Positions 1 through 17,996 of a stretch of 24,450 bases of DNA are shown piece after piece (position 1 is the stretch's first letter; every line of letters begins with the position of its first letter). The DNA is taken from positions 1 through 24,450 of IMG/VR virus record IMGVR_UViG_3300009786_000076. One strand, given 5' to 3'. Origin of the DNA: a virus. The notes under the pieces are model-generated. The model saw nothing but the letters and a program-made list of their open reading frames with translations, was not told where the DNA came from and made no database searches. Position numbers and translations under genes: made by a program.

Positions 1-140
1 ATGTACAGTAAAACGCGAGCTTGCCTATCTTACCACATTTTTCGTCGTAAGTCCTTTGATAGCAACGACTTACAGCGTCGGCGGCGGCCCCGGCGTCGTA
101 AGTCCTTTCGTACCAACGACTTAGGGCGTTTTTTTTGGTA
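1..140. repeat. Cassette-boundary repeat, copy A
   Basis: A complex repeat lies just beyond the stop codon of the last leftward gene. It holds two tandem units of about 34 bp (44-77 and 96-129) of form GTCGTAAGTCC, a short spacer, then AACGACTTA and GCG, separated by a GC-rich core (70-92). The second unit is itself an inverted repeat (CGTCGTAAGTC with GACTTAGGGCG) followed by T8 on the plus strand, so it could act as a terminator for rightward transcription. The outer sequence TGTACA plus CCTATCTTACC recurs at 1317-1350. Function is inferred only: boundary, regulatory or replication element. Confidence 0.7.
27..35 (-). promoter_or_regulatory. Candidate leftward extended -10 promoter, copy A
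   Basis: The minus strand reads TGGTAAGAT, a match to the extended -10 pattern TGnTATAAT with one mismatch in the hexamer. No good -35 is visible, as expected for an extended -10 promoter. The same nonamer occurs at 1342-1350 and a variant at 2919-2927, each beside the AACGACTTA repeats. This copy would drive genes lying left of the window. Confidence 0.4.
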
Positions 141-142
141 AA

Positions 143-325
143 CTAGGCAATCTGTATTAAGATGTTTTCAGCACCCTCGACCGCCTGTTCACCACAGTCT
201 TCACATGTATACCCCTGAGCGTCAGGCTCAACGCCGTCATGTTCAGCCCCACATGCTGTACAAAACCCCAAGTAATCATAAGATTCACATGCGGCCATAA
301 TTTCATCAATATCAAAAGTAATCAT
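143..325 (-). CDS. Small zinc-ribbon protein
   Basis: A 60-aa protein beginning MITFDIDEIMAACESYD. Two CxxC knuckles, CTAC and CEDC, are 18 residues apart (first Cys to first Cys) and should bind one zinc ion, giving a zinc ribbon. Small proteins of this kind are common in the early regions of phages, but I know no proven function. The start at 325 is chosen because its ATG overlaps the TGA of the upstream gene (ATGA) and AAAGGG lies just upstream. A longer frame reaching 361 would overlap that gene for no reason. It is the last gene of the leftward cassette, and its TAG stop directly abuts repeat copy A. Role unknown; nucleic-acid binding or protein contact is a guess from the fold. Confidence 0.75.
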   Translation of the reverse strand: MITFDIDEIMAACESYDYLGFCTACGAEHDGVEPDAQGYTCEDCGEQAVEGAENILIQIA

Positions 326-519
326 ATTTTCCCTTTTATTTTCCAACCGACGTTTAGGCATTCTTCAATAAAGTCACAGATGGTCACTTGTTTTTCTTGA
401 GATTCAAATTCCGCATAGTTATCACGCCATACAGAACCGTCACGCATAACAAAATAATCACCAGTGGTAATTGGTTCATCTGTTCGTAAGTCAAAGAATT
501 CGATTTTAGAACTACCCAT
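322..519 (-). CDS. Hypothetical small phage protein (65 aa)
   Basis: A 65-aa protein starting MGSSKIEFFDL and ending in KIKGKI. AGAAGGAG lies a few bases before the ATG on the minus strand, a strong ribosome binding site. It overlaps the next leftward gene by ATGA, so the two are probably translated together. The central part (GDYFVMRDGSVWRDN) looks like a short beta-rich domain. There are no membrane segments, signal peptide or cysteine clusters. I do not recognise the family. Position between other tiny minus-strand genes suggests an early, host-takeover type gene. Confidence 0.65.
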   Translation of the reverse strand: MGSSKIEFFDLRTDEPITTGDYFVMRDGSVWRDNYAEFESQEKQVTICDFIEECLNVGWKIKGKI

Positions 520-574
520 GCTTTCTCCTTCTAATTTAAAAAAACAGTGAACAAGTTAAAACTAGGGGAAACCC

Positions 575-847
575 CTAGTCCCATTGTGAGTGATAGGCAT
601 CGGCTTCGGCTTCTGCCCAACCGTCATCGTAACAGGCATCGTCTTCACGGGTGTCCATGAAATCTTCAATCGACGTTTCGACCGAATCCCAACCTTGCGG
701 GGGGAAATCGCCGCCAGCCGCTTCGTGGTCTTCAATCACGTCTTCGATTTCTTGCTCCCGGTCGAGTTTGTCGTGAAATTCGTTCAACTCTTGAACAGCG
801 TCTGCGGTGATGATTTGAGATTCAATCGCGGTTTGGTTATTTTTCAT
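575..847 (-). CDS. Very acidic small protein (90 aa)
   Basis: A 90-aa protein starting MKNNQTAIESQ and ending AYHSQWD. Asp and Glu make up roughly a third of the residues and Lys/Arg are few, giving a strongly negative protein. The start at 847 has AAAAGG about 10 bases upstream; a longer reading with a TTG at 889 is less likely. A consensus sigma70 promoter lies about 50 bp upstream (897-924), so it can be expressed on its own. Strongly acidic small phage proteins sometimes mimic DNA to block host restriction or other DNA-binding proteins, but nothing beyond charge and location supports that here. Family not recognised. Confidence 0.65.
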   Translation of the reverse strand: MKNNQTAIESQIITADAVQELNEFHDKLDREQEIEDVIEDHEAAGGDFPPQGWDSVETSIEDFMDTREDDACYDDGWAEAEADAYHSQWD

Positions 848-896
848 GTCTGAAAGCCTTTTCAAAAAACAAGGAACAGTTAGATTCAACTATTGC

Positions 897-924
897 ATTA
901 TAAAGCATCGTCAGAACGTGTCAA
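897..924 (-). promoter_or_regulatory. Consensus sigma70 promoter, leftward
   Basis: The minus strand reads TTGACA (924-919), 16 bases, TATAAT (902-897). Both hexamers are perfect matches to the sigma70 consensus, with 16 bp spacing. It points at the acidic protein gene starting at 847 and would be served by host RNA polymerase early in infection. Confidence 0.85.
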
Positions 925-943
925 GGGAATTTAGGTTATTTTC

Positions 944-1150
944 CTAAAAATCCCCACAAAGAAAATCATGTACATTTGCGTACACCAATTCGCCTCTCAA
1001 TGCGTAATCTTCGTTCAGGTTTTCCAGTTCCACATCGGTCATTTGACGACCGTTCACGCAAGCCGATTCCACGTAAGCATCGCAGAAGTCAGGAGCGTCA
1101 GAAGTGTCAACGTCAGCCAATTCAACGTCGCTGTAAATGTTTTTTGTCAT
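944..1150 (-). CDS. Acidic small phage protein (68 aa)
   Basis: A 68-aa acidic protein starting MTKNIYSDVELADVDTSD. The start at 1150 has AAGGA nine bases upstream and fits better than the longer reading from 1174. The segment around SDVELADVDTSDAPDFCDAY resembles small proteins I recall from other phages, without an assigned function. Two cysteines in the N-terminal half are not in a metal-binding arrangement. A sigma70-type promoter lies immediately upstream (1192-1220). It is the first gene of the leftward cassette bounded by repeat copy B. Role unknown. Confidence 0.65.
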   Translation of the reverse strand: MTKNIYSDVELADVDTSDAPDFCDAYVESACVNGRQMTDVELENLNEDYALRGELVYANVHDFLCGDF

Positions 1151-1191
1151 CTCATTTTTCCTTTTCAAAATCAAGTAAACTGTATATTTAA

Positions 1192-1220
1192 AGTATCGTC
1201 GATATACGGATAAAAGTCAA
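1192..1220 (-). promoter_or_regulatory. Sigma70-type promoter, leftward
   Basis: The minus strand reads TTGACT (1220-1215), a 17-base spacer, then GATACT (1197-1192). The -35 box is one base off consensus and the -10 two bases off, with ideal spacing. It lies 42 bases upstream of the ATG at 1150. Confidence 0.65.
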
Positions 1221-1265
1221 CACAATTCGGTAAAAAATTATAAAATAATCAGGAATTTAAATTAC

Positions 1266-1319
1266 GTGCATATCTCGCCGTTTGTACATATCTCGTCATT
1301 TGTACATGTTAGCCGATGT
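1266..1319. repeat. Three imperfect 18-bp tandem units with TGTACA sites
   Basis: Units at 1266-1283, 1284-1301 and 1302-1319. The first two (GTGCATATCTCGCCGTTT and GTACATATCTCGTCATTT) match at 15 of 18 positions; the third is diverged. The palindrome TGTACA occurs at 1283, 1301 and 1317. The array sits in the 302-bp gap 1151-1452, between the extended -10 promoter at 1342-1350 and the promoter at 1192-1220, where operators would be expected. It is not a CRISPR array: there are no spacers. Confidence 0.6.
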
Positions 1320-1455
1320 ACAGCGAATTGCTACTTTACCTATCTTACCAGATTTTTCGTCGTAAGTCCTTACTATCAAACGACTTACGTTCACGGGGCC
1401 GCCGCCGACGCTGTAACCCCTTTGGTATCAACGACTTACGGCGTTTTTTCTGTTA
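1315..1455. repeat. Cassette-boundary repeat, copy B
   Basis: Degenerate direct copy of 1-140. It matches in TGTACA and CCTATCTTACC (1317-1350), in TTTTTCGTCGTAAGTCC (1353-1369), and in the right part AACGACTTACGGCG followed by T6 (1430-1447). The GC-rich core is in the opposite orientation: 1394-1416 is the exact reverse complement of 70-92. The first unit is a perfect inverted repeat, CGTAAGTC with GACTTACG. As in copy A, it directly follows the stop codon of a leftward gene (1453). Confidence 0.75.
1342..1350 (-). promoter_or_regulatory. Candidate leftward extended -10 promoter, copy B
   Basis: The minus strand reads TGGTAAGAT, identical to 35-27. It is embedded in repeat copy B and points toward the cassette 1150-143. 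No -35 match is seen. The 18-bp tandem units lie between it and the second promoter, so this cassette may have two promoters with operator-like sites in between. Confidence 0.45.
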
Positions 1456-1662
1456 AGTTAGGGGGTTTCCAAATCCGCACAACAAACCCCACATTTGTTC
1501 ACATGTCTGAGTTTCCACATTAATCCCACCATCCATATTAACACAGTACCACTGTTCACTACTGTTACCAAGTTTATCATGCTGTAAACTAAATTTCCAG
1601 CTATTTATTCGACATTTTGCCAGTACCTGATTCTCGTATCTGTTTTCGATTCTCTCAGTCAT
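1453..1662 (-). CDS. Hypothetical small protein (69 aa)
   Basis: A 69-aa frame starting MTERIENRYENQ and ending GFGNPLT. The purine-rich stretch AAAGAGAAG precedes the ATG closely, a weak ribosome binding site. It contains four cysteines (about residues 17, 40, 54 and 62), not in a recognisable zinc motif, and several tryptophans. It is the last gene of the second leftward cassette, and its TAA stop lies in the edge of repeat copy B, paralleling the gene at 143. Family not recognised. Coding status rests on the position, the ribosome binding site and the absence of a competing frame. Confidence 0.5.
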   Translation of the reverse strand: MTERIENRYENQVLAKCRINSWKFSLQHDKLGNSSEQWYCVNMDGGINVETQTCEQMWGLLCGFGNPLT

Positions 1663-3334: not shown

Positions 3335-3349
3335 AAAATAGTGTATTAT
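3335..3349 (+). promoter_or_regulatory. Phage late-promoter-like motif, site 1
   Basis: Reads AAAATAGTGTATTAT, a member of the family TAAAAWAGTGTATWAT found also at 11609, 13893, 17994 and 22964. There is no sigma70 -35 box at the proper distance. It lies 70 bases before the first rightward gene and would transcribe the operon that contains the sigma-like factor. Confidence 0.6.
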
Positions 3350-3605: not shown

Positions 3606-3828
3606 GAAGAATAAAATAATCCCCCATTGGTCCTCTTCTAATCTATGTGAGCATTCATATAATCGAGAACCCCTATCAGATACGATAGAGAAATATGGGT
3701 TCCACAAGATACTATACAGAGTTAAGCCCAGACCCATTCACTATAGCATACAGTTATTGGGGTTACGTCCAAAAGACCTGCCCATATCAAATCCTAGAAG
3801 GTGGAAAATATATGAAAATTCCCCCTAA
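3598..3828 (+). CDS. Hypothetical small basic protein (76 aa)
   Basis: A 76-aa protein starting MTKKNKIIPHWSSSN and ending KIYENSP, rich in Lys/Arg and aromatic residues. GAGGTGG lies just before the ATG. It overlaps the preceding gene by eight bases and the following sigma-like gene by 17 bases, typical of tight coupling. The other frame across 3695-3811 is also open, so the coding frame is not beyond doubt; the ribosome binding site and the overlap with the gene before it favour this one. Family not recognised. Confidence 0.45.
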   Translation: MTKKNKIIPHWSSSNLCEHSYNREPLSDTIEKYGFHKILYRVKPRPIHYSIQLLGLRPKDLPISNPRRWKIYENSP

Positions 3829-4372
3829 CCACACCGAGGAACAAGTCCTCGCCCTTCTAGATAATATCGCCAATCGCTTTAAGATGAAATACCGATTCGA
3901 TATCCACGATGAAGATGACATATATCAAGAAGCCTATGTGCTTGCGTGGCAAGCTCTTGATAAGTACAATGGAAACCACCCCCTAGAAAACTTCCTAACA
4001 ACTCATGTCTCAAATCGCCTCAAGAATTTCAAACGCAACAACCTGTACTATAAGCAAGAGCCAGGAATAGATTCATCCAAACAGGAACGTGCCGAGTGGA
4101 ATGAGCGCTACCTATCCCAAAAACGCATCTTTGAGGCCATAACTATAGATAGAATCCGCGACGAACATGAATCCAACATGCGACGCCCATCTGACTCAGA
4201 GAATGTGCTGTACTATAAACAGGTCGCCCAATGTATTGATAAATTTCTTCCTTCTGAACTCCGCATAGAATATTTGAAGATGAAAGAGGGAATAAATATA
4301 CCAAAGCCCAGGAGAGAATATGTAATGGGCGTACTTAAACAGATATTAGAGGACAATGGCTATGGGCCTTAA
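3812..4372 (+). CDS. Sigma-factor-like protein, candidate late sigma factor
   Basis: A 186-aa protein whose first third resembles region 2 of sigma70-family factors. EDDIYQEAYVLAW (residues 34-46), then a tyrosine-containing turn (KYNG, 51-54), and FLTTHVSNRLKNFKR (61-75) match the core-binding and -10-recognition helices. The C-terminal part (about 137-180) is helical and could be a shortened region 4. The start at 3812 has AAGGTGG eight bases upstream; a longer frame from 3695 would overlap the previous gene fully. The size is close to that of T4 gp55, the late sigma factor. I infer that it directs the host RNA polymerase to phage late promoters; the repeated TAAAAWAGTGTATWAT motif is the obvious candidate site. 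Region 2 assignment is by eye. It overlaps the next gene by a few bases. Confidence 0.7.
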   Translation: MKIPPNHTEEQVLALLDNIANRFKMKYRFDIHDEDDIYQEAYVLAWQALDKYNGNHPLENFLTTHVSNRLKNFKRNNLYYKQEPGIDSSKQERAEWNERYLSQKRIFEAITIDRIRDEHESNMRRPSDSENVLYYKQVAQCIDKFLPSELRIEYLKMKEGINIPKPRREYVMGVLKQILEDNGYGP

Positions 4373-5216
4373 AACCGGCAGACTAAAGAATGACGAAAAG
4401 AAATATATTATTGACAATGTGAAACATATGGACTATGTAACAATTGCAAAGGCGCTTAATAGGCGACCCGTATCTATCCAGAACTATATTGAAGAAGACC
4501 TGGACATGGTAACAAATCTGTCAGAAAACGATATGACAGGTGGCATACATGTGCCAGACATAACAGATAGGGAATTTTGGCCCATATTAAAGAAACAGTT
4601 TGATAAAGATGAACTAAAAGTCTTTAAGCACCACTGGGTTCAAATCTTCACCCAGTTTAAGGGCGACGTAGTTGCCACGGAAGAACTTCAGATAATAGAT
4701 ACCATTAAGTATGAGATACTGATGGACCGCAATCTGACAGACCAGTATGGGGCAGAGAAGATGATGAAACAGTTAGAAGTGGATATCGCCCTAGAAAGTG
4801 CCAAACCCAGAGACCAGGATTCGCCCGATGGGTGCGACAAGAATCTCCTGTTCCAAATGAATCAGCAGATATCGGTTTTAGCCGCATCTAAGAGTCAGAC
4901 ATCTAAACAGTTCATAGACCTACAGGATAAGAAGAATCGGCTGTTGAATAGTATGAAAGCTACGAGAGCCGACCGATATAATGATATAGACAAGAGTAAG
5001 GAATCGTTCACCTCTTGGATGAAAGAACTCCTAACTAACCCTTCTAAAAGATATGCGTTGGGTATAGAGATGGAGAAACGGCGACTTGCTATGGAAAAGG
5101 AAAAGGGTAGGCTGACCCAATATCATCAGTATGAAGATGGCATTGTGGACCAGCCCTTTTTAAATCACGAAACTGTAAAAGAAGACAATGGAAGGAATAA
5201 GCAAAATGAATCTTGA
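4362..5216 (+). CDS. Helix-turn-helix protein, candidate terminase small subunit
   Basis: A 284-aa protein. Residues about 6-45 form a helix-turn-helix (DEKKYIIDNVKHMDYVTIAK, then RRPVSIQNYI), followed by a long, charged, mostly helical region with probable coiled coil (about 145-245, from MNQQISVLAASKSQT on). Phage terminase small subunits typically have this plan: an N-terminal DNA-binding HTH, a helical oligomerisation core and a tail that contacts the large subunit. Its place before the large terminase fits, although five accessory genes and an ERCC4 nuclease gene intervene. The start at 4362 has GAGG nine bases upstream; an ATG at 4356 is only three bases from it. An alternative is another HTH regulator. 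Confidence 0.6.
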   Translation: MGLKTGRLKNDEKKYIIDNVKHMDYVTIAKALNRRPVSIQNYIEEDLDMVTNLSENDMTGGIHVPDITDREFWPILKKQFDKDELKVFKHHWVQIFTQFKGDVVATEELQIIDTIKYEILMDRNLTDQYGAEKMMKQLEVDIALESAKPRDQDSPDGCDKNLLFQMNQQISVLAASKSQTSKQFIDLQDKKNRLLNSMKATRADRYNDIDKSKESFTSWMKELLTNPSKRYALGIEMEKRRLAMEKEKGRLTQYHQYEDGIVDQPFLNHETVKEDNGRNKQNES

Positions 5217-5637
5217 TGAAATGGTAGACTCATGTGTGGAAGAGAGTACGGTATTAGAAGAGCAATATAATAGGGCTTGGAACAATAATGTCGTAGTGTA
5301 TGACCAAGATGCTACAGCGGGAGTATTCACTAAGCGATTGGTGTCCCTAATGAAAACGGTTATGCGTAGGAATGGGTGTAACTATGGGGAACCGGGAATG
5401 GATAATCCTAGACTTAATGCTATATATATGGGAGAAGACTCTAATATAGAGGGGTGGGGAAACCTGACCGGTAGCTTTAGTATATCGGGAATACCGGTTG
5501 TAAGAACCGCAGAATTAAATCGTGATAGTTACATATGGAGAAAATATAACACAGCATCTAATTTTCCCAAAGGTAAGGGCGAGTTGTGTGTGGGTATTGA
5601 CCAAGATGGTGATAGCGTTTTATTGGGGATGTTTTAA
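5206..5637 (+). CDS. Capsid-protein-like fragment (major capsid paralogue, part 1)
   Basis: A 143-aa protein with a segment very close to the major capsid protein encoded at 15954. Around residues 28-58, VYDQDATAG, FTKRLVSLMK and MRRNG align with VYDADASAG, FTKRLVSLMK and MRRNG, about 23 identities in 30 positions by hand alignment. Its C-terminus, GELCVGIDQDGDSVL, aligns with TELVVGLDMGANDSF. The N-terminal half of the capsid protein is missing. The start at 5206 is preceded by GGAAGGAA and overlaps the upstream stop. Third-codon positions differ widely from the capsid gene, so the copy is not recent. The frame stops just where the capsid continues, and the next ORF resumes with a capsid-like motif. 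Possible minor capsid component or a decayed duplicate kept in frame. Confidence 0.65.
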   Translation: MNLDEMVDSCVEESTVLEEQYNRAWNNNVVVYDQDATAGVFTKRLVSLMKTVMRRNGCNYGEPGMDNPRLNAIYMGEDSNIEGWGNLTGSFSISGIPVVRTAELNRDSYIWRKYNTASNFPKGKGELCVGIDQDGDSVLLGMF

Positions 5638-7779: not shown

Positions 7780-8301
7780 ATGTATACTATAGTAATAGAT
7801 ACGCGAGAACAGCTCTCCTGGGATTTTAGTTCCCACGAAGAGTGCCGGGGTAGTTTGGTAGAAACACTACAAGAAGGCGACTATACTACTAAAGAAATAC
7901 TGGATTTGGAGCGTGATACGGGGGCTAAAATTCTTCGCATAGAAAGAAAGGCAAGCTCTCAGGAAATTTCCCTAAACTTGGGAAAGCATAAGGCTCGCTT
8001 TTTAAGAGAGATGGAAAGACTGTCTTACTATGAACATAAATTTTTGATACTAGAGTTCTCGTTAGAGACACTTCTAATGTTTCCACAAGGTTCGGGTATT
8101 CCAAGAAAATTTTGGTATCGAAGAAACAAAAGTGGAAAGCGCGTCAAAAACGTAAAGATGAGTGGGAACTACATGTTAAAGATTCTGAGAGGGATTGAGT
8201 CAGAATATGGGGTACACCTAATATTCGCTGGAGATAAGCATACTGCTGCTTTCAAAGCAGAAAAGATAATAAAGGAAGTGCATGAGCAATATTTCACTTA
8301 A
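7780..8301 (+). CDS. ERCC4-type nuclease
   Basis: A 173-aa protein with an ERCC4 (XPF/MUS81-like) nuclease domain: IDTREQ (6-11), EGDYTTKE (32-39), IERKASSQE (54-62), then NLGKHKARFLREMERL. Asp34 and Glu55-Arg56-Lys57 correspond to the family's metal-binding GD and ERK residues. The Asp often found four residues after the ERK is not present; Glu62 is close by. Members of this family cut branched or flap DNA. Its location directly before the large terminase, overlapping it by 20 bases, suggests a role in debranching replicated DNA ahead of packaging, or recombination. AAAGGG lies seven bases before the ATG. Confidence 0.8.
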   Translation: MYTIVIDTREQLSWDFSSHEECRGSLVETLQEGDYTTKEILDLERDTGAKILRIERKASSQEISLNLGKHKARFLREMERLSYYEHKFLILEFSLETLLMFPQGSGIPRKFWYRRNKSGKRVKNVKMSGNYMLKILRGIESEYGVHLIFAGDKHTAAFKAEKIIKEVHEQYFT

Positions 8302-11300
8302 AAGAAAAGACAAAGATAATGAGGACATTCAACGCCTATTGGCTGATGCGTGGCTGAATATAACTGTAGATGAATCCACAATGTATAATCCCCTAATGGA
8401 TATACCTCCTGAGTACATGGATGAGCCACATAAGTATATATCGTGGCTAATGACTAGACCTGAGTATTTCTCATTTATATGCAAAGAGATATTCAATATC
8501 GACTTATTGCCTTTTCAAGCATTGATGTTAAGAGAGTTATGGGAAAGGCGTTTTCCGATGCTTATAGCAACTAGAGGGGCAGGTAAATCTTTTATATTAG
8601 GTTTATATAGTTTATTGAGAATCTTGTTAATGCCTAAAAGAAAGCTTATTGTTGCGGGTGCTGGTTTTCGTCAATCTAAAGTTATCTTTGATTACATGGA
8701 GACTATCTATAATAATGCTCCTTTATTAAGAGATATTGTAGGAATCAATAAATCAAATGGGGTACGTCGAGCTACAGATATGTGGACATTTTCTATAGGA
8801 GAATCTGTATGTCGCTGTATTCCTGTTGGCGATGGTTCGAAGATTAGAGGTCAACGCGCCAACGACCTTTTAGTTGATGAATTTGCCTCTTTACCTGTAG
8901 ATATTTTTGAAAATGTTATGGCAGGTTTTGCTGCTGTTAGTTCTACTCCTGTTTCTAACGTTAAAGATATAGCAGCCCAAAAAATGGCCAAAAAAATGGG
9001 ATATAACTTAGAAGATAAATCTGACCCTCTTAAAAAAGATAACCAAATTATTATATCTGGTACTGCTTATTATGATTTTAACCATTTTTCTGATTATTGG
9101 AAAGATTGGCATGAAATAATTTGTACTCAAGGGAACGAAAGAAAATTAAAAGAATTTTTTAAAAGAAAATCTAACTCAGAAGGTAAGGATGATACGGATG
9201 TTCCTGCGGATTTTAATTATGAAGATTATTCTATAATTAGAATGCCTTTTGAGAAGCTTCCAAAAGGATTTATGGATGCTGCACAGGTGGCCCGTTCTAA
9301 GGCTACTATTCATGCGGGTATCTATATGATGGAATTTTCAGCATGTGGAATATTTGAAACTCCTATTATTACAGATAAAGGTATCAAGCCTTTAGGAGAA
9401 GTTAATATTGGAGATAAAGTCCTAACACACAAAGGTAGATTTCGTCCAGTGTTAGAGACTACTCAAAAACCTTACAATGATAAATTATTAAGAGTTAATA
9501 CAAATGGTTATTTTCATGATTTATTATTTACCCCAAATCATCCTTTTTGGGTAAAAGAAGATATTTTTACAGAACTATATAATGTAGAAAATGAATTATT
9601 TTTATCTAATATTAAAGAACTATCAGGATTAAATAAATTAGACTGTATTAATATTTGTACTAATTATGTAGAAAAAGATGACTATATCTACGCCAAGTCT
9701 TCTAAAAACAAACTTTCTAGTATAGATGTGAATAATATATTAAAACTAATTAGTCAAGGACAATCTCAGGTAAGTATAGCTAAACAATACAATGTATCAC
9801 AATCTACTATATCTATGGTTAAATTAGATAAAAGATGTAATGGAAAACCTAAAAATGCTATACCAAGTAGTATCCCTTTAAATTATGATATGGGTATTTG
9901 TGTTGGTTATTATGCATCAGAGGGAAGCACAGGTTCCAATGGACATGCTTGTAATTTTGCTTTAGATGGACATGTTAATATCGGTTTAGAAGAATATGTA
10001 GAGGAACTATCTTCTTCTTTGTATAACGTATTTAATATATATCCTAAATATTATGATAAACAAGATAATTGTATATCAGTAAACATAAACGCTAGACTAG
10101 TATGTGAACTATTTAAGTATATTTGTCCTGGTAATTGTTATAGTAAATTAATTAGAAATGACATATTGTTTTCTAATGAAGAGTTTCTTAAAGGGTTTAT
10201 TATAGGAATGTTTAATGGTGATGGGCATATTAGAGACAGGCTTGCCACTTTACAACTCACTAATTTAGATTTGGTTAATCAGGTCAAAATGGCATTAAGT
10301 TATTTTGGGATTAATGCATCATTTTTAAAACCTAAAAGAGAAAAAACAGGAGTTATTAAAGGAAAAGAGGTCAATCTAAGTCAGGCTTATAAAATTAATA
10401 TATCTGGTAATGAGTTTAGAAAATTTATGAATACTTTTTACGGCTTTAATTTAAGCATGTCAGAGAGAAAACAATTAGTACAATCTGACGAAGATAAAAG
10501 TTCGTATAACATATTAGAAAAAGAATTAATTCCTTTTAATGGTTTTTTATATAATTTAGAAGTAGAAGAAGATAATTCTTATTCAACACCTAATAGTACT
10601 GTGCATAACTGTTTTTCAACTGACTCTAATGGTTTCTTTAAGCGCTCTCTTATAGAGTCTTGTGTGGGGAATCATAAAAATAGTATATGCCTACCTAGTG
10701 AAGACAATATATACTTTCAAGCGGGACTATATGGCAATCCTACTAAACGGTATGTATATGGTATAGACCCTGCCTCACAAGTTGATAATTTCTCTATAGT
10801 AGTATTAGAGCTATGTGAAGACCATAGAAGAATAGTATATGGTTGGACCACTAATGTAGAACAACATAAGATAGAGATTCAGGCTGGAGTAACCAATGAG
10901 ATGGATTACTACTCTTACTGTGCTAAGAAGATTAGGCAGCTTATGAATAGGTTCCCCTGTGAGCGTATCGGTCTCGATGCTCAGGGTGGTGGTATAGCCA
11001 TCATGGAAGCCCTGCATGACCCAGATAAGATAAAAGAGGGTGAAGTCCCTATATGGCCTATTATAGATGAAGACAAAGAGAAAGACACTGACTTTAAAGC
11101 TGGGGCACATATAGTAGACCTTATTCAGTTTGCTTCTGCCGACTGGACATCTGAGGCTAATCACGGACTACGTAAAGACTTAGAAGATAAGGCTATCCTG
11201 TTTCCTCACTTTGACCCTTCTGTTTTGGCTACTGCCACAGGACTGGATAAGTTGCATAGTAAGATATATGATACTTTAGAAGACTGTATCATGGAGATAG

Positions 11301-11611
11301 AAGAACTCAAAGATGAGCTATCTACCATAGTTATTACGCAAACCACTTCTGGTAGAGATAGGTGGGATACTCCTGAGATTAAGATGCCTGGAGGTAAAAA
11401 GGGAAGAATGAGAAAGGACCGTTACTCTGCTGTCATCATGGCTAACATGGTAGGTAGACAGATAATGCGTGCTCCTGCTCCTTTAGACTACTCTAGTGTG
11501 GGTGGTTTTTCTCAGGCTATGACAAATATTCAAGATGGGGCTGTATACATAGGTAATGAAAAATTTGCCCAGGAATCTAAAGATGTGATGGATTTCTATG
11601 GTATGGCATAA
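8282..11611 (+). CDS. terL: Terminase large subunit, interrupted by an intein
   Basis: A 1109-aa precursor; about 687 aa after removal of the intein. The ATPase domain shows Walker A ATRGAGKS (96-103) and Walker B NDLLVDEF (194-201). Coupling motif SGTAYYDF follows. The C-terminal RNase-H-like nuclease has YGIDPAS, RIGLDAQGGG and the late RKDRYSA, whose Asp residues are the likely metal ligands. The enzyme cuts concatemeric DNA and pumps it into the prohead through the portal. The intein (residues 355-776) splits the EFSA-CFSTDSNGFF junction; this segment matches the usual terminase sequence once spliced. AAGGA lies just before the start. Codon use in the part before the intein (about 8530-9343) leans to ATT/ATC for Ile, while the part after uses ATA mostly. 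The stop TAA forms the start of late-promoter-like site 2. Confidence 0.95.
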   Translation: MSNISLKRKDKDNEDIQRLLADAWLNITVDESTMYNPLMDIPPEYMDEPHKYISWLMTRPEYFSFICKEIFNIDLLPFQALMLRELWERRFPMLIATRGAGKSFILGLYSLLRILLMPKRKLIVAGAGFRQSKVIFDYMETIYNNAPLLRDIVGINKSNGVRRATDMWTFSIGESVCRCIPVGDGSKIRGQRANDLLVDEFASLPVDIFENVMAGFAAVSSTPVSNVKDIAAQKMAKKMGYNLEDKSDPLKKDNQIIISGTAYYDFNHFSDYWKDWHEIICTQGNERKLKEFFKRKSNSEGKDDTDVPADFNYEDYSIIRMPFEKLPKGFMDAAQVARSKATIHAGIYMMEFSACGIFETPIITDKGIKPLGEVNIGDKVLTHKGRFRPVLETTQKPYNDKLLRVNTNGYFHDLLFTPNHPFWVKEDIFTELYNVENELFLSNIKELSGLNKLDCINICTNYVEKDDYIYAKSSKNKLSSIDVNNILKLISQGQSQVSIAKQYNVSQSTISMVKLDKRCNGKPKNAIPSSIPLNYDMGICVGYYASEGSTGSNGHACNFALDGHVNIGLEEYVEELSSSLYNVFNIYPKYYDKQDNCISVNINARLVCELFKYICPGNCYSKLIRNDILFSNEEFLKGFIIGMFNGDGHIRDRLATLQLTNLDLVNQVKMALSYFGINASFLKPKREKTGVIKGKEVNLSQAYKINISGNEFRKFMNTFYGFNLSMSERKQLVQSDEDKSSYNILEKELIPFNGFLYNLEVEEDNSYSTPNSTVHNCFSTDSNGFFKRSLIESCVGNHKNSICLPSEDNIYFQAGLYGNPTKRYVYGIDPASQVDNFSIVVLELCEDHRRIVYGWTTNVEQHKIEIQAGVTNEMDYYSYCAKKIRQLMNRFPCERIGLDAQGGGIAIMEALHDPDKIKEGEVPIWPIIDEDKEKDTDFKAGAHIVDLIQFASADWTSEANHGLRKDLEDKAILFPHFDPSVLATATGLDKLHSKIYDTLEDCIMEIEELKDELSTIVITQTTSGRDRWDTPEIKMPGGKKGRMRKDRYSAVIMANMVGRQIMRAPAPLDYSSVGGFSQAMTNIQDGAVYIGNEKFAQESKDVMDFYGMA
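9344..10609 (+). mobile_element. LAGLIDADG intein in the large terminase
   Basis: A 422-aa protein-splicing element starting with Cys355 and ending in the His-Asn pair (775-776), followed by Cys777 of the C-extein. Block A is CGIFETPIITDKG; block B includes TPNHPF (417-422, Thr and His conserved). Block F/G is YNLEVEEDNSYS to STVHN. The homing endonuclease part has two LAGLIDADG-type helices, ICVGYYASEG (539-548) and FIIGMFNGDG (639-648). A helix-turn-helix (SIAKQYNVSQSTIS) sits between block B and the first helix. All splicing residues are intact, so it should be active. The sequence is more AT-rich than most of the window. Confidence 0.93.
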
Positions 11612-15953: not shown

Positions 15954-16961
15954 ATGAGTAGACGTAAACAAACGAGACCAGATGACGCTTTAATCGACTT
16001 GATTAAACGTTCTGGTTCTAGCGATACCTCTATCGCTTTTCAAGCTCAGTACGAACTTGCACGTGCCTTAGAAACCCCTCTCCGACAGGGTGTTTTGGTT
16101 GGTGACATTGTTCGAAATGTGTTTGAAGCGATGGTTTTAGAACCGGGGGCATCTGTTGAATGGCCTTTGGATTTACTAGCTCCAGGTGAAGAAGATGAGT
16201 TCATAGCTTATACCAATCCTGGTAACGGTCGTATTCCTGAGCAACAAGTTGAAGGTGACTATGTTACCATTCCGACTTACGGGATTGCTATGAGTATTGA
16301 CTGGTTGCTTCGATATGCACGTGACGCACGATGGGATATTATCTCCCGTGCTATGCAAGTGTTAGAAGCTGGTTTTGTAAAGAAAATCAATGATGATGGT
16401 TGGCATACAGTACTTAGTGCTGGTGCAGACAGAAACATCTTGGTTTATGATGCAGATGCTAGTGCTGGACAATTCACCAAGCGATTGGTTAGTTTAATGA
16501 AGGTTCTTATGCGACGTAACGGTGGTGGTAATACTGCTTCCTTGAGTCGTGGTCGATTGACCGATATCTTCTTGAGTCCTGAAGCCTTGGAAGACATCCG
16601 TAACTGGGGTCTTGACCAAGTTGATGAAATCACACGAAGAGAAATCTTTGTTGCTTCTGATGACTCTATTAGCCGAGTGTTCGGTGTAAATCTTCATGAC
16701 CTTGATGAATTTGGCGAAGGCCAAGAATATCAAGCCTTCTTCACTGACCAGTTGGGAGCTTCTTTGGAAGCATCTGATACTGAGTTGGTAGTTGGTCTGG
16801 ATATGGGAGCTAATGACTCGTTCATTATGCCTATCCGACAAGAAGTTCAGGTAACTGAAGACCCAACACTTCACAGACAGCAACGTGCTGGTGTTTATGC
16901 GACTGCCGAACTTGGTTTCGGGGTTTTAGACAATAGGCGATGTTTGCTCGGCTCGTTTTAG
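15954..16961 (+). CDS. Major capsid protein, HK97 fold
   Basis: A 335-aa protein with GAAGGAG upstream. The size, place after scaffold and small capsid protein, and the strong, GC-richer, regular codon choice support the major capsid protein. The central part (VEWPLDLLAPGEEDEFIAYT and GDYVTIPTYGIAMSIDW) is what I expect of an E-loop/spine region in HK97-fold capsids. The latter half (VYDADASAG, FTKRLVSLMK, MRRNG) is also found in the capsid-like ORF at 5206. No separate delta domain precedes it because the scaffold is encoded apart. A strong terminator follows the stop. A homing endonuclease gene is inserted directly downstream. Confidence 0.85.
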   Translation: MSRRKQTRPDDALIDLIKRSGSSDTSIAFQAQYELARALETPLRQGVLVGDIVRNVFEAMVLEPGASVEWPLDLLAPGEEDEFIAYTNPGNGRIPEQQVEGDYVTIPTYGIAMSIDWLLRYARDARWDIISRAMQVLEAGFVKKINDDGWHTVLSAGADRNILVYDADASAGQFTKRLVSLMKVLMRRNGGGNTASLSRGRLTDIFLSPEALEDIRNWGLDQVDEITRREIFVASDDSISRVFGVNLHDLDEFGEGQEYQAFFTDQLGASLEASDTELVVGLDMGANDSFIMPIRQEVQVTEDPTLHRQQRAGVYATAELGFGVLDNRRCLLGSF

Positions 16962-17042: not shown

Positions 17043-17996
17043 ATGGGAAATTATGGAATTGTTAGTAATAATGAAAACAAGGTATATGAATGGCTACAAG
17101 AAGGATATTCTGCATATAAGATAGCTAAAATGCTGGGCTGTGCTAAAAGTAGCGTGTTGAAATATATGAGTAAGAAAGGATGGACAAGTCAGCATAAATG
17201 TAAAGTCAACTATAACAGTCTATTAAAAGACAAAAAAGACTTAGTAGTACAACTACATAAACGGAATATGTCACAGTCAGAGATATCTAAGATTGTAGGG
17301 CATTCTGCTCCTCAAATATCTACAATGCTAAAAAAGGAAGGGTTATATAGGAATTATAAATACCAAGTGGACGAGTCCTTTTTCTCAGAGATAGATACGC
17401 AAGAAAAAGCCTACGTATTAGGCTGGATGTATTCTGATGGTAACGTAACGCCAGAAGGTAAATTCCGCATCCAAATCCAAAAAGATGATGAAGAGATACT
17501 CTATAAGATACGGGCTATCTTACAATACGATGGGCCTATGTATGATATCGATATACCAAAGAACGATTGGAGCAAAAAACCCCAAACCTGCCTATGCGTC
17601 AATCGCAAATCTATGACAGAAGACCTTGTGCGACATGGTTGTTCTCCCAATAAGTCCCTAGTGATAGAGTATCCCACATGGATAGACCCCACATTAGAAT
17701 CCCACTTCTTACGTGGTATCCTAGACGGTGATGGGTCAATTAACATCAAAAAGGGTAAATACCTAAATACCTCTATCACCACAACAGACCTATTCAACAA
17801 AGAGTTACAGTCTCGCCTATCTAAAATGGGAATAGATTCCCAACTATATTACCGATATGAACATACTAACACGTGCTCCCTTATGGTTACTAAAACCTCA
17901 CATGCTAATAAGTTTCTAGAATATCTATATCAAGATTCAAGCATATGTCTTGCAAGAAAACATCAAAAATATCAAGAATTCCTCAATACAAAGTAA
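17043..17996 (+). CDS. Free-standing LAGLIDADG homing endonuclease with two HTH domains
   Basis: A 317-aa protein. Two helix-turn-helix units are at the N-terminus: YKIAKMLGCAKSSVLKYM (about 25-42) and SEISKIVGHSAPQISTML (about 79-96). Two LAGLIDADG helices follow: AYVLGWMYSDG (123-133) and FLRGILDGDG (222-231), each with the acidic residue that coordinates the metal, so one chain can make a double-strand cut. AAGGAGA lies before the ATG. It sits between the capsid terminator and the next late promoter, a neutral insertion spot. Such genes spread by cutting phages that lack them, usually close to their own location. Its stop codon overlaps late-promoter-like site 4. It shares its HTH-plus-LAGLIDADG plan with the terL intein. 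Confidence 0.92.
   Translation: MGNYGIVSNNENKVYEWLQEGYSAYKIAKMLGCAKSSVLKYMSKKGWTSQHKCKVNYNSLLKDKKDLVVQLHKRNMSQSEISKIVGHSAPQISTMLKKEGLYRNYKYQVDESFFSEIDTQEKAYVLGWMYSDGNVTPEGKFRIQIQKDDEEILYKIRAILQYDGPMYDIDIPKNDWSKKPQTCLCVNRKSMTEDLVRHGCSPNKSLVIEYPTWIDPTLESHFLRGILDGDGSINIKKGKYLNTSITTTDLFNKELQSRLSKMGIDSQLYYRYEHTNTCSLMVTKTSHANKFLEYLYQDSSICLARKHQKYQEFLNTK

Follow-up and report, generated by a model that had tools for sequence, protein, structure and literature searches.

The 23-bp GC-rich stretch that lies inverted between two otherwise directly repeated elements at the start of the window (the whole 24,450-nt stretch of viral DNA analysed here, IMG/VR record IMGVR_UViG_3300009786_000076) belongs to a dispersed family of units of uncultured tailed phages, a family larger than the preliminary description had recognised. 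These units are probably boundary or control signals, not a genetic switch, and their GC-rich middle can occur in either orientation. We favour an orientation-neutral boundary element that is bound by a dimeric protein and undergoes core turnover across short inverted arms, a reading to which we assign a probability of about 0.5.

The 23-mer TTACAGCGTCGGCGGCGGCCCCG at positions 70-92 (plus strand) is the exact reverse complement of positions 1394-1416 (the inverted copy, minus strand), and the match stops at both ends. The outer flanks match in the direct orientation, with 37 of 46 positions identical on the left (1-46 and 1316-1361) and 19 of 24 on the right (125-148 and 1440-1463). Both the inverted core and the same-direction alignment of the flanks are thus as originally reported. 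Each copy is a 78-bp unit made of a dyad, a 24-nt GC-rich core, and a second dyad, and the dyad has the 27-bp consensus GTAAGTCSTT-N7-AASGACTTAC (10-7-10). Unit A comprises a left dyad with no mismatches (GTAAGTCCTT-TGATAGC-AACGACTTAC, 47-73), the core placed between the dyads (AGCGTCGGCGGCGGCCCCGGCGTC, 74-97), and a right dyad with one mismatch (GTAAGTCCTT-TCGTACC-AACGACTTAG, 98-124). The corresponding parts of unit B are the left dyad (GTAAGTCCTT-ACTATCA-AACGACTTAC, 1362-1388), the core (GTTCACGGGGCCGCCGCCGACGCT, 1389-1412), and a right dyad with two mismatches (GTAACCCCTT-TGGTATC-AACGACTTAC, 1413-1439). In the left dyad, the 7-nt spacers of the two copies (TGATAGC and ACTATCA) are also close to being reverse complements of each other, agreeing at 6 of 7 positions. 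The inverted GTAAGTC/GACTTAC arms described earlier around the core are present, but they are parts of full 27-bp dyads, two per copy, and the inner right arm of copy B reads GTAACCC rather than GTAAGTC, so that the arms directly beside core B share only TTAC/GTAA. Two degenerate dyads, at 2718-2744 (six mismatches) and 2848-2874 (five mismatches), are possible decayed half-units.

Core A has a match score of 16 against the inverted core B and of 3 against the direct core B, and none of 2000 shuffles reached 16. A pattern scan found four 27-bp dyads in the window, compared with 0.01 expected in shuffles, and on these two results chance was rejected as the source of the pattern. Local palindromy of the core, raised earlier as a competing explanation of the inverted match, does not account for it, since the self-palindromy scores are only 6 (core A) and 1 (core B).

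The exact dyad is present in at least 120 IMG/VR stretches. Among the matches listed, there are 308 distinct units in 84 loci from several unrelated phage lineages, with cores of the type seen in unit A. The IMG/VR loci, which total 1.09 Mb and most of which were chosen because they bear the dyad, hold 836 dyads when up to five mismatches are allowed, whereas shuffled sequence yields 11. Relatives of the window phage fetched without use of the dyad (L192, L133, L138, and L155) yielded five units, with an atypical core composition in L133. The dyads are paired at a start-to-start distance of mostly 50-53 or 42 bp, the units measure approximately 77-80 bp, and the cores have a median GC content of 85%, versus an average of 42% for the loci. 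In whole records, the units are grouped in one part of the genome, the small-gene region; examples are a record of 113 kb with its units at 85-94 kb and one of 43 kb with its units at 28-37 kb. The carriers include relatives of the window phage that share the terminase and a sigma-like factor, and others that have different shared gene sets, for example with a PhoH-like protein or a clamp loader. In the GenBank phage set we found no match to positions 1-1700 of the window and no record covering at least 80% of a unit, and searches with two DNA patterns or with the protein encoded at 4356-5216 found no close relatives carrying the window's own units. Nothing relevant to the motif or to such elements was found in the literature.

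The dyad was also detected in 39 stretches of bacterial genomes, most of them with a lone and mostly perfect dyad. Lone exact dyads near tRNA genes, with neither core nor partner, occur in Treponema, Planctomycetes, and other genomes (L219, L223, L224, L229, L231, L237, L238, L242, and L246). A few small contigs (L215, L217/L228, L243, and L249) look like phage binned with bacteria. In a Verrucomicrobiae chromosome (OX638380.1; L214, L232, L239, L241, L244, and L248), the dyad and conserved sequence on its two sides form a longer dispersed repeat that is present at least six times.

Genes were called by codon usage, and the gene, promoter, and terminator calls used here are simple predictions, not transcript data. 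On these calls, 242 of 249 units do not overlap a gene, and units are found at 28 of 46 convergent but 16 of 65 divergent junctions (Fisher P=1.7e-4). At co-directional junctions, predicted canonical terminators are mostly found ahead of the unit (41 before, 12 after). Sigma-70-like promoters are in excess after the unit (168 versus 66 expected; 20 versus 20 in the antisense direction), most often with the -35 element 30-70 bp past it, and the units themselves are far upstream of gene starts (median 137 nt). With terminators before and promoters after the unit, the predicted order is therefore gene, terminator, unit, promoter, gene. The units are located between transcription units, and the name boundary element given to the two copies at the outset is a fair one. 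In the window, both units follow the 3′ ends of leftward genes: unit A lies beyond a 72-aa ORF (143-361, minus strand) with its stop at 143, 18 nt from the unit, and unit B lies beyond a 69-aa ORF (1453-1662, minus strand) with its stop at 1453, 13 nt from the unit. Continuing from unit B in the sense direction, the next gene is a small one at 944-1150 (minus strand), and a predicted sigma-70-like promoter (TTGACT-17-GATACT, 1192-1220, minus strand) stands between the two. This is the nearest good predicted promoter, and its -35 element is about 140 bp beyond unit B, farther than in most other phages and outside the usual 30-70 bp, which counts against the reading we favour.

A sigma-54-like motif, TGGCACG-N4-TTGC, is found beside units in a number of loci (L031, L043, L054, L064, L065, L067, L077, L080, L092, L253, and L255), typically 12-18 bp from the unit edge, and 36 of its 76 occurrences are within 120 bp of a unit. 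It mostly reads into the unit, on the strand opposite to the genes (21 of 30 at co-directional junctions), and is absent near the units of the window. The motif is perhaps a second operator rather than a promoter.

Units keep corresponding places in related phages while their cores diverge, and apparent empty sites, in a small sample, proved to be diverged units once aligned. Where flank identity is below 85% (12 orthologous pairs), identity averages 77% in the flanks, 0.87 in the arms, and 0.72 in the cores, with a baseline of 0.61 for unrelated cores. In one pair of related phages (L057/L060), orthologous cores are no closer than unrelated ones (0.57-0.65) and cores within each phage are at 0.89 and 0.81. 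The cores thus evolve in concert within a phage, which is clear in this one pair. The core is conserved only as a GC-rich stretch.

Inversion of the core is recurrent. Of the paralogous core pairs that are alike in one orientation only, 39 of 152 are inverted. When unit pairs with directly matching outer flanks are considered, 72 have direct and 117 have unrelated cores, and an inverted core is seen in 10 distinct pairs. These inverted cores between direct flanks come from four phage groups, the window included; the other cases are L064 (9204 versus 11911), units of L254, and the L032/L063/L122 group. In a further comparison within L064 (3686 versus 9204), the left flank and both dyads are direct and the core is inverted. 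Here the base at half-site position 2 (C/T), next to the core, switches side with it, but positions 7-8 keep theirs, so that the exchange is located within the inner arms. The inversion is most simply explained by exchange across the inverted inner arms, and either a local flip or copying from another unit in opposite alignment would give this pattern. Recombination across the arms, as proposed in the preliminary description, thus has parallels in other phages, although cores are mostly direct or unrelated and seldom inverted.

Within the half-site, AA at positions 3-4 and T at position 10 are nearly invariant. Identity between arms 1 and 2 and between arms 3 and 4 equals that of within-locus shuffles, with no compensatory change, and identity between arms 2 and 3 and between arms 1 and 4 is slightly below that of the shuffles. 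Because the half-sites are conserved without covariation, we read them as protein half-sites rather than as a hairpin, and they fit recognition by a putative dimeric DNA-binding protein; no obvious regulator was recognised among the scanned gene families shared by unit-bearing loci. A conserved core hairpin was rejected, as the cores fold scarcely better than their own shuffles (mean z -0.27). The cores have no G/C strand skew relative to the genes (81 versus 87).

An RNA element, either a double-hairpin transcription terminator or an mRNA 3′-end stabiliser, would have foldable dyads and cores, as these units do, and would suit their location after operon ends and their enrichment at convergent junctions. 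Yet the arms do not covary, position 8/20 is paired in only 45% of dyads, the cores fold hardly above shuffles, and DNA folding gives mostly unremarkable z values, -0.9 to -2.5, for units A and B. There is also no enrichment of a U-tract on the sense side (T-runs of at least five follow 21 of 178 units and precede 24), canonical terminators are found upstream of the unit, and no Rfam RNA family was found in the window, all of which makes an RNA element improbable. No tRNA was found in the window. The units could instead be operators or upstream activation sites of early promoters, with no boundary function, and this would accord with the enrichment of promoters just past the unit and with two dyads placed roughly on one helical face (spacing 42 or 50-53 bp). 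However, 18 of the 28 units at convergent ends have no detected outward promoter, and units are commoner at convergent than at divergent junctions; we consider a purely operator role unlikely. For the boundary reading that we favour, convergent placement fits a boundary or 3′-end role, but the strong tendency to stand upstream of promoters would suit an activator or repressor site just as well.

Three further explanations were weighed. A dedicated site-specific inversion switch, in which the dyads are recombinase sites and flipping of the core alters expression, is suggested by the 10-7-10 dyad geometry, which resembles tyrosine recombinase core sites, and by the occurrence of cores and some spacers in both orientations. 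However, none of 20 records (the window and 19 unit-bearing records of 15-163 kb, all possible fragments) has a match to the tyrosine recombinase PF00589, the serine recombinase PF00239, or the Y1 transposase PF01797, with working controls, and a dedicated switch is therefore unsupported. The core has neither promoter nor gene, and the two dyad spacers differ within a unit; strand exchange normally requires matching overlaps. Core replacement (117) is also commoner than inversion (10). No recombinase gene was detected in the window, as had been stated, and the idea that the elements act as switches finds no backing, since cores are replaced and homogenised, not toggled between two states. We regard a switch as extremely doubtful. 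Insertion of a mobile palindromic repeat in either direction (REP/BIME-like, MITE-like, or like mitochondrial GC clusters and double-hairpin elements) would produce units that are dispersed, GC-rich, intergenic, numerous in a genome, and alike within it. Against such insertion, orthologous units are kept in place with no clean empty sites in the small sample, no Y1 transposase was detected in the 20 records, and in the window and L064 the core alone is inverted between direct flanks (and, in L064 3686/9204, between direct dyads as well), which is not expected from insertion of a whole unit. A mobile repeat is thus quite unlikely. Lastly, the repeats might recombine and swap modules, as gene-shuffling linkers like the PeSLs of T4-type phages. 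The small-gene region, the neighbourhood of promoters and terminators, and the many unit pairs with only one flank in common are in keeping with this, but homology breakpoints fall at units for 201 of 3271 ends (6.1% versus 5.4% at random), and homology ends at 42% of unit edges versus 36% of unit-free intergenic gaps. Units are thus no focus of breakpoints, and a role for them in module shuffling is unsupported and appears highly improbable.

None of the systems that we compared (PeSL, ESAS, and plastid flip-flop) fits all of the tested features. REP/BIME elements of enterobacteria are short intergenic palindromes, GC-rich and repeated at the ends of operons, often as pairs. The phage units are likewise GC-rich, intergenic, paired, and at operon ends, but their arms do not covary and no RAYT-type (Y1) transposase was detected. 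The attC sites of integrons have two inverted simple sites around a variable centre. The units share this arrangement and are likewise repeated between small genes, but arms 1-4 and 2-3 pair no better than chance and no integrase domain was found. In dispersed phage operator or stoperator systems, the sites have a cognate phage DNA-binding protein. The sequence-conserved, non-covarying half-sites of the units would suit recognition by a protein, and no candidate protein was recognised in the shared families scanned.

The PeSLs of T4-type phages (Arbiol 2010 and Comeau 2014, as cited in PMC4503421) are dispersed intergenic composites of a promoter and a stem-loop. The units resemble PeSLs in being dispersed intergenic composites in a plastic part of the genome, beside promoters and terminators, and alike within one phage. 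In contrast to the single promoter and stem-loop of a PeSL, they consist of two 27-bp dyads and an interchangeable GC-rich core, and they show no breakpoint enrichment. Each unit has its promoter on the far side and its terminator on the near side, but is not in itself a covarying stem-loop. In Cluster K mycobacteriophages, an ESAS is an inverted repeat of 17 bp that immediately precedes a start-associated repeat of 13 bp, the SAS (PMC3203893). As with ESAS, there are many copies of a conserved site pair with a variable spacer, intergenic in a non-structural region, but each unit has two complete dyads and is well upstream of gene starts, and no comparable start repeat was noticed. Plastid loop flip-flop involves 5-9 bp loops of strong hairpins at single loci (Kim & Lee 2005, as described in PMC6342102). 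It is similar in that related copies recurrently carry a short segment in one or the other orientation between inverted repeats, with no obvious recombinase, whereas the units have GC-rich cores of 13-24 bp and are dispersed.

Returning to the orientation-neutral boundary element, we infer a binding protein, a boundary function, and an exact recombination route from the observed anatomy, recurrence, and position of the units, the lack of arm covariation, the core inversion, and the greater similarity of paralogous than orthologous cores in one pair. The two 27-bp dyads, separated by about five helical turns and enclosing a GC-rich spacer, would bind a dimeric protein of phage or host. Units would mark the borders of transcription units in the small-gene region, either between a terminator and the next promoter or at convergent ends. 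Bound dimers, together with a GC clamp that is hard to melt, could form a two-sided boundary that stops read-through, or could set the promoter just downstream. Selection would keep the GC-richness of the core and not its sequence or direction, and a core kept only for GC-richness could therefore be inverted or replaced without cost. Recombination over the inner arms (TTAC...GTAA) would invert or replace it, by a local flip or by copying of a core from another unit paired in the opposite direction.

The units may represent an undescribed class of phage boundary element, in which paired dyads recognised by one conserved factor, perhaps of the host, serve unrelated lineages and enclose a GC-rich core that evolves in concert within each genome and flips freely when very short inverted arms recombine; this is a tentative view that we hold at somewhat short of even odds. 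If it is right, many uncultured phages from different lineages have a cis-acting code in common, in the part of their genomes that is least understood, and thus also a recognising protein, possibly one of a common host group. It would also offer a handle on how small-gene operons stay apart. The units look like a natural example, in phage DNA, of cores that evolve in concert and invert across arms of only 4-7 bp, and an inversion between direct flanks need not signal a phase switch.

Other features of the window were observed. Motifs of the AAAAAGTGTATAAT type (families D2 and D4) occur at 3335, 6153, 11610, 13662, 13893, 17994, and 22964, several of them a short distance 5′ of structural genes. 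They resemble late promoters of phages, and the sigma-like factor encoded at 3695-4372 perhaps recognises them. The large terminase gene (8282-11611) is split by an intein, with Hint and LAGLIDADG matches at about residues 358-716. A 317-aa ORF (17043-17996), between the head gene and the tail genes, has a helix-turn-helix-like start and homing-endonuclease-like features. Finally, the short ORF at 5206-5637 and the major head protein gene (15954-16961) share the protein motif VYD.DA.AG.FTKRLVSLMK...MRRNG, and the short ORF is possibly a partial duplicate of the major head protein.
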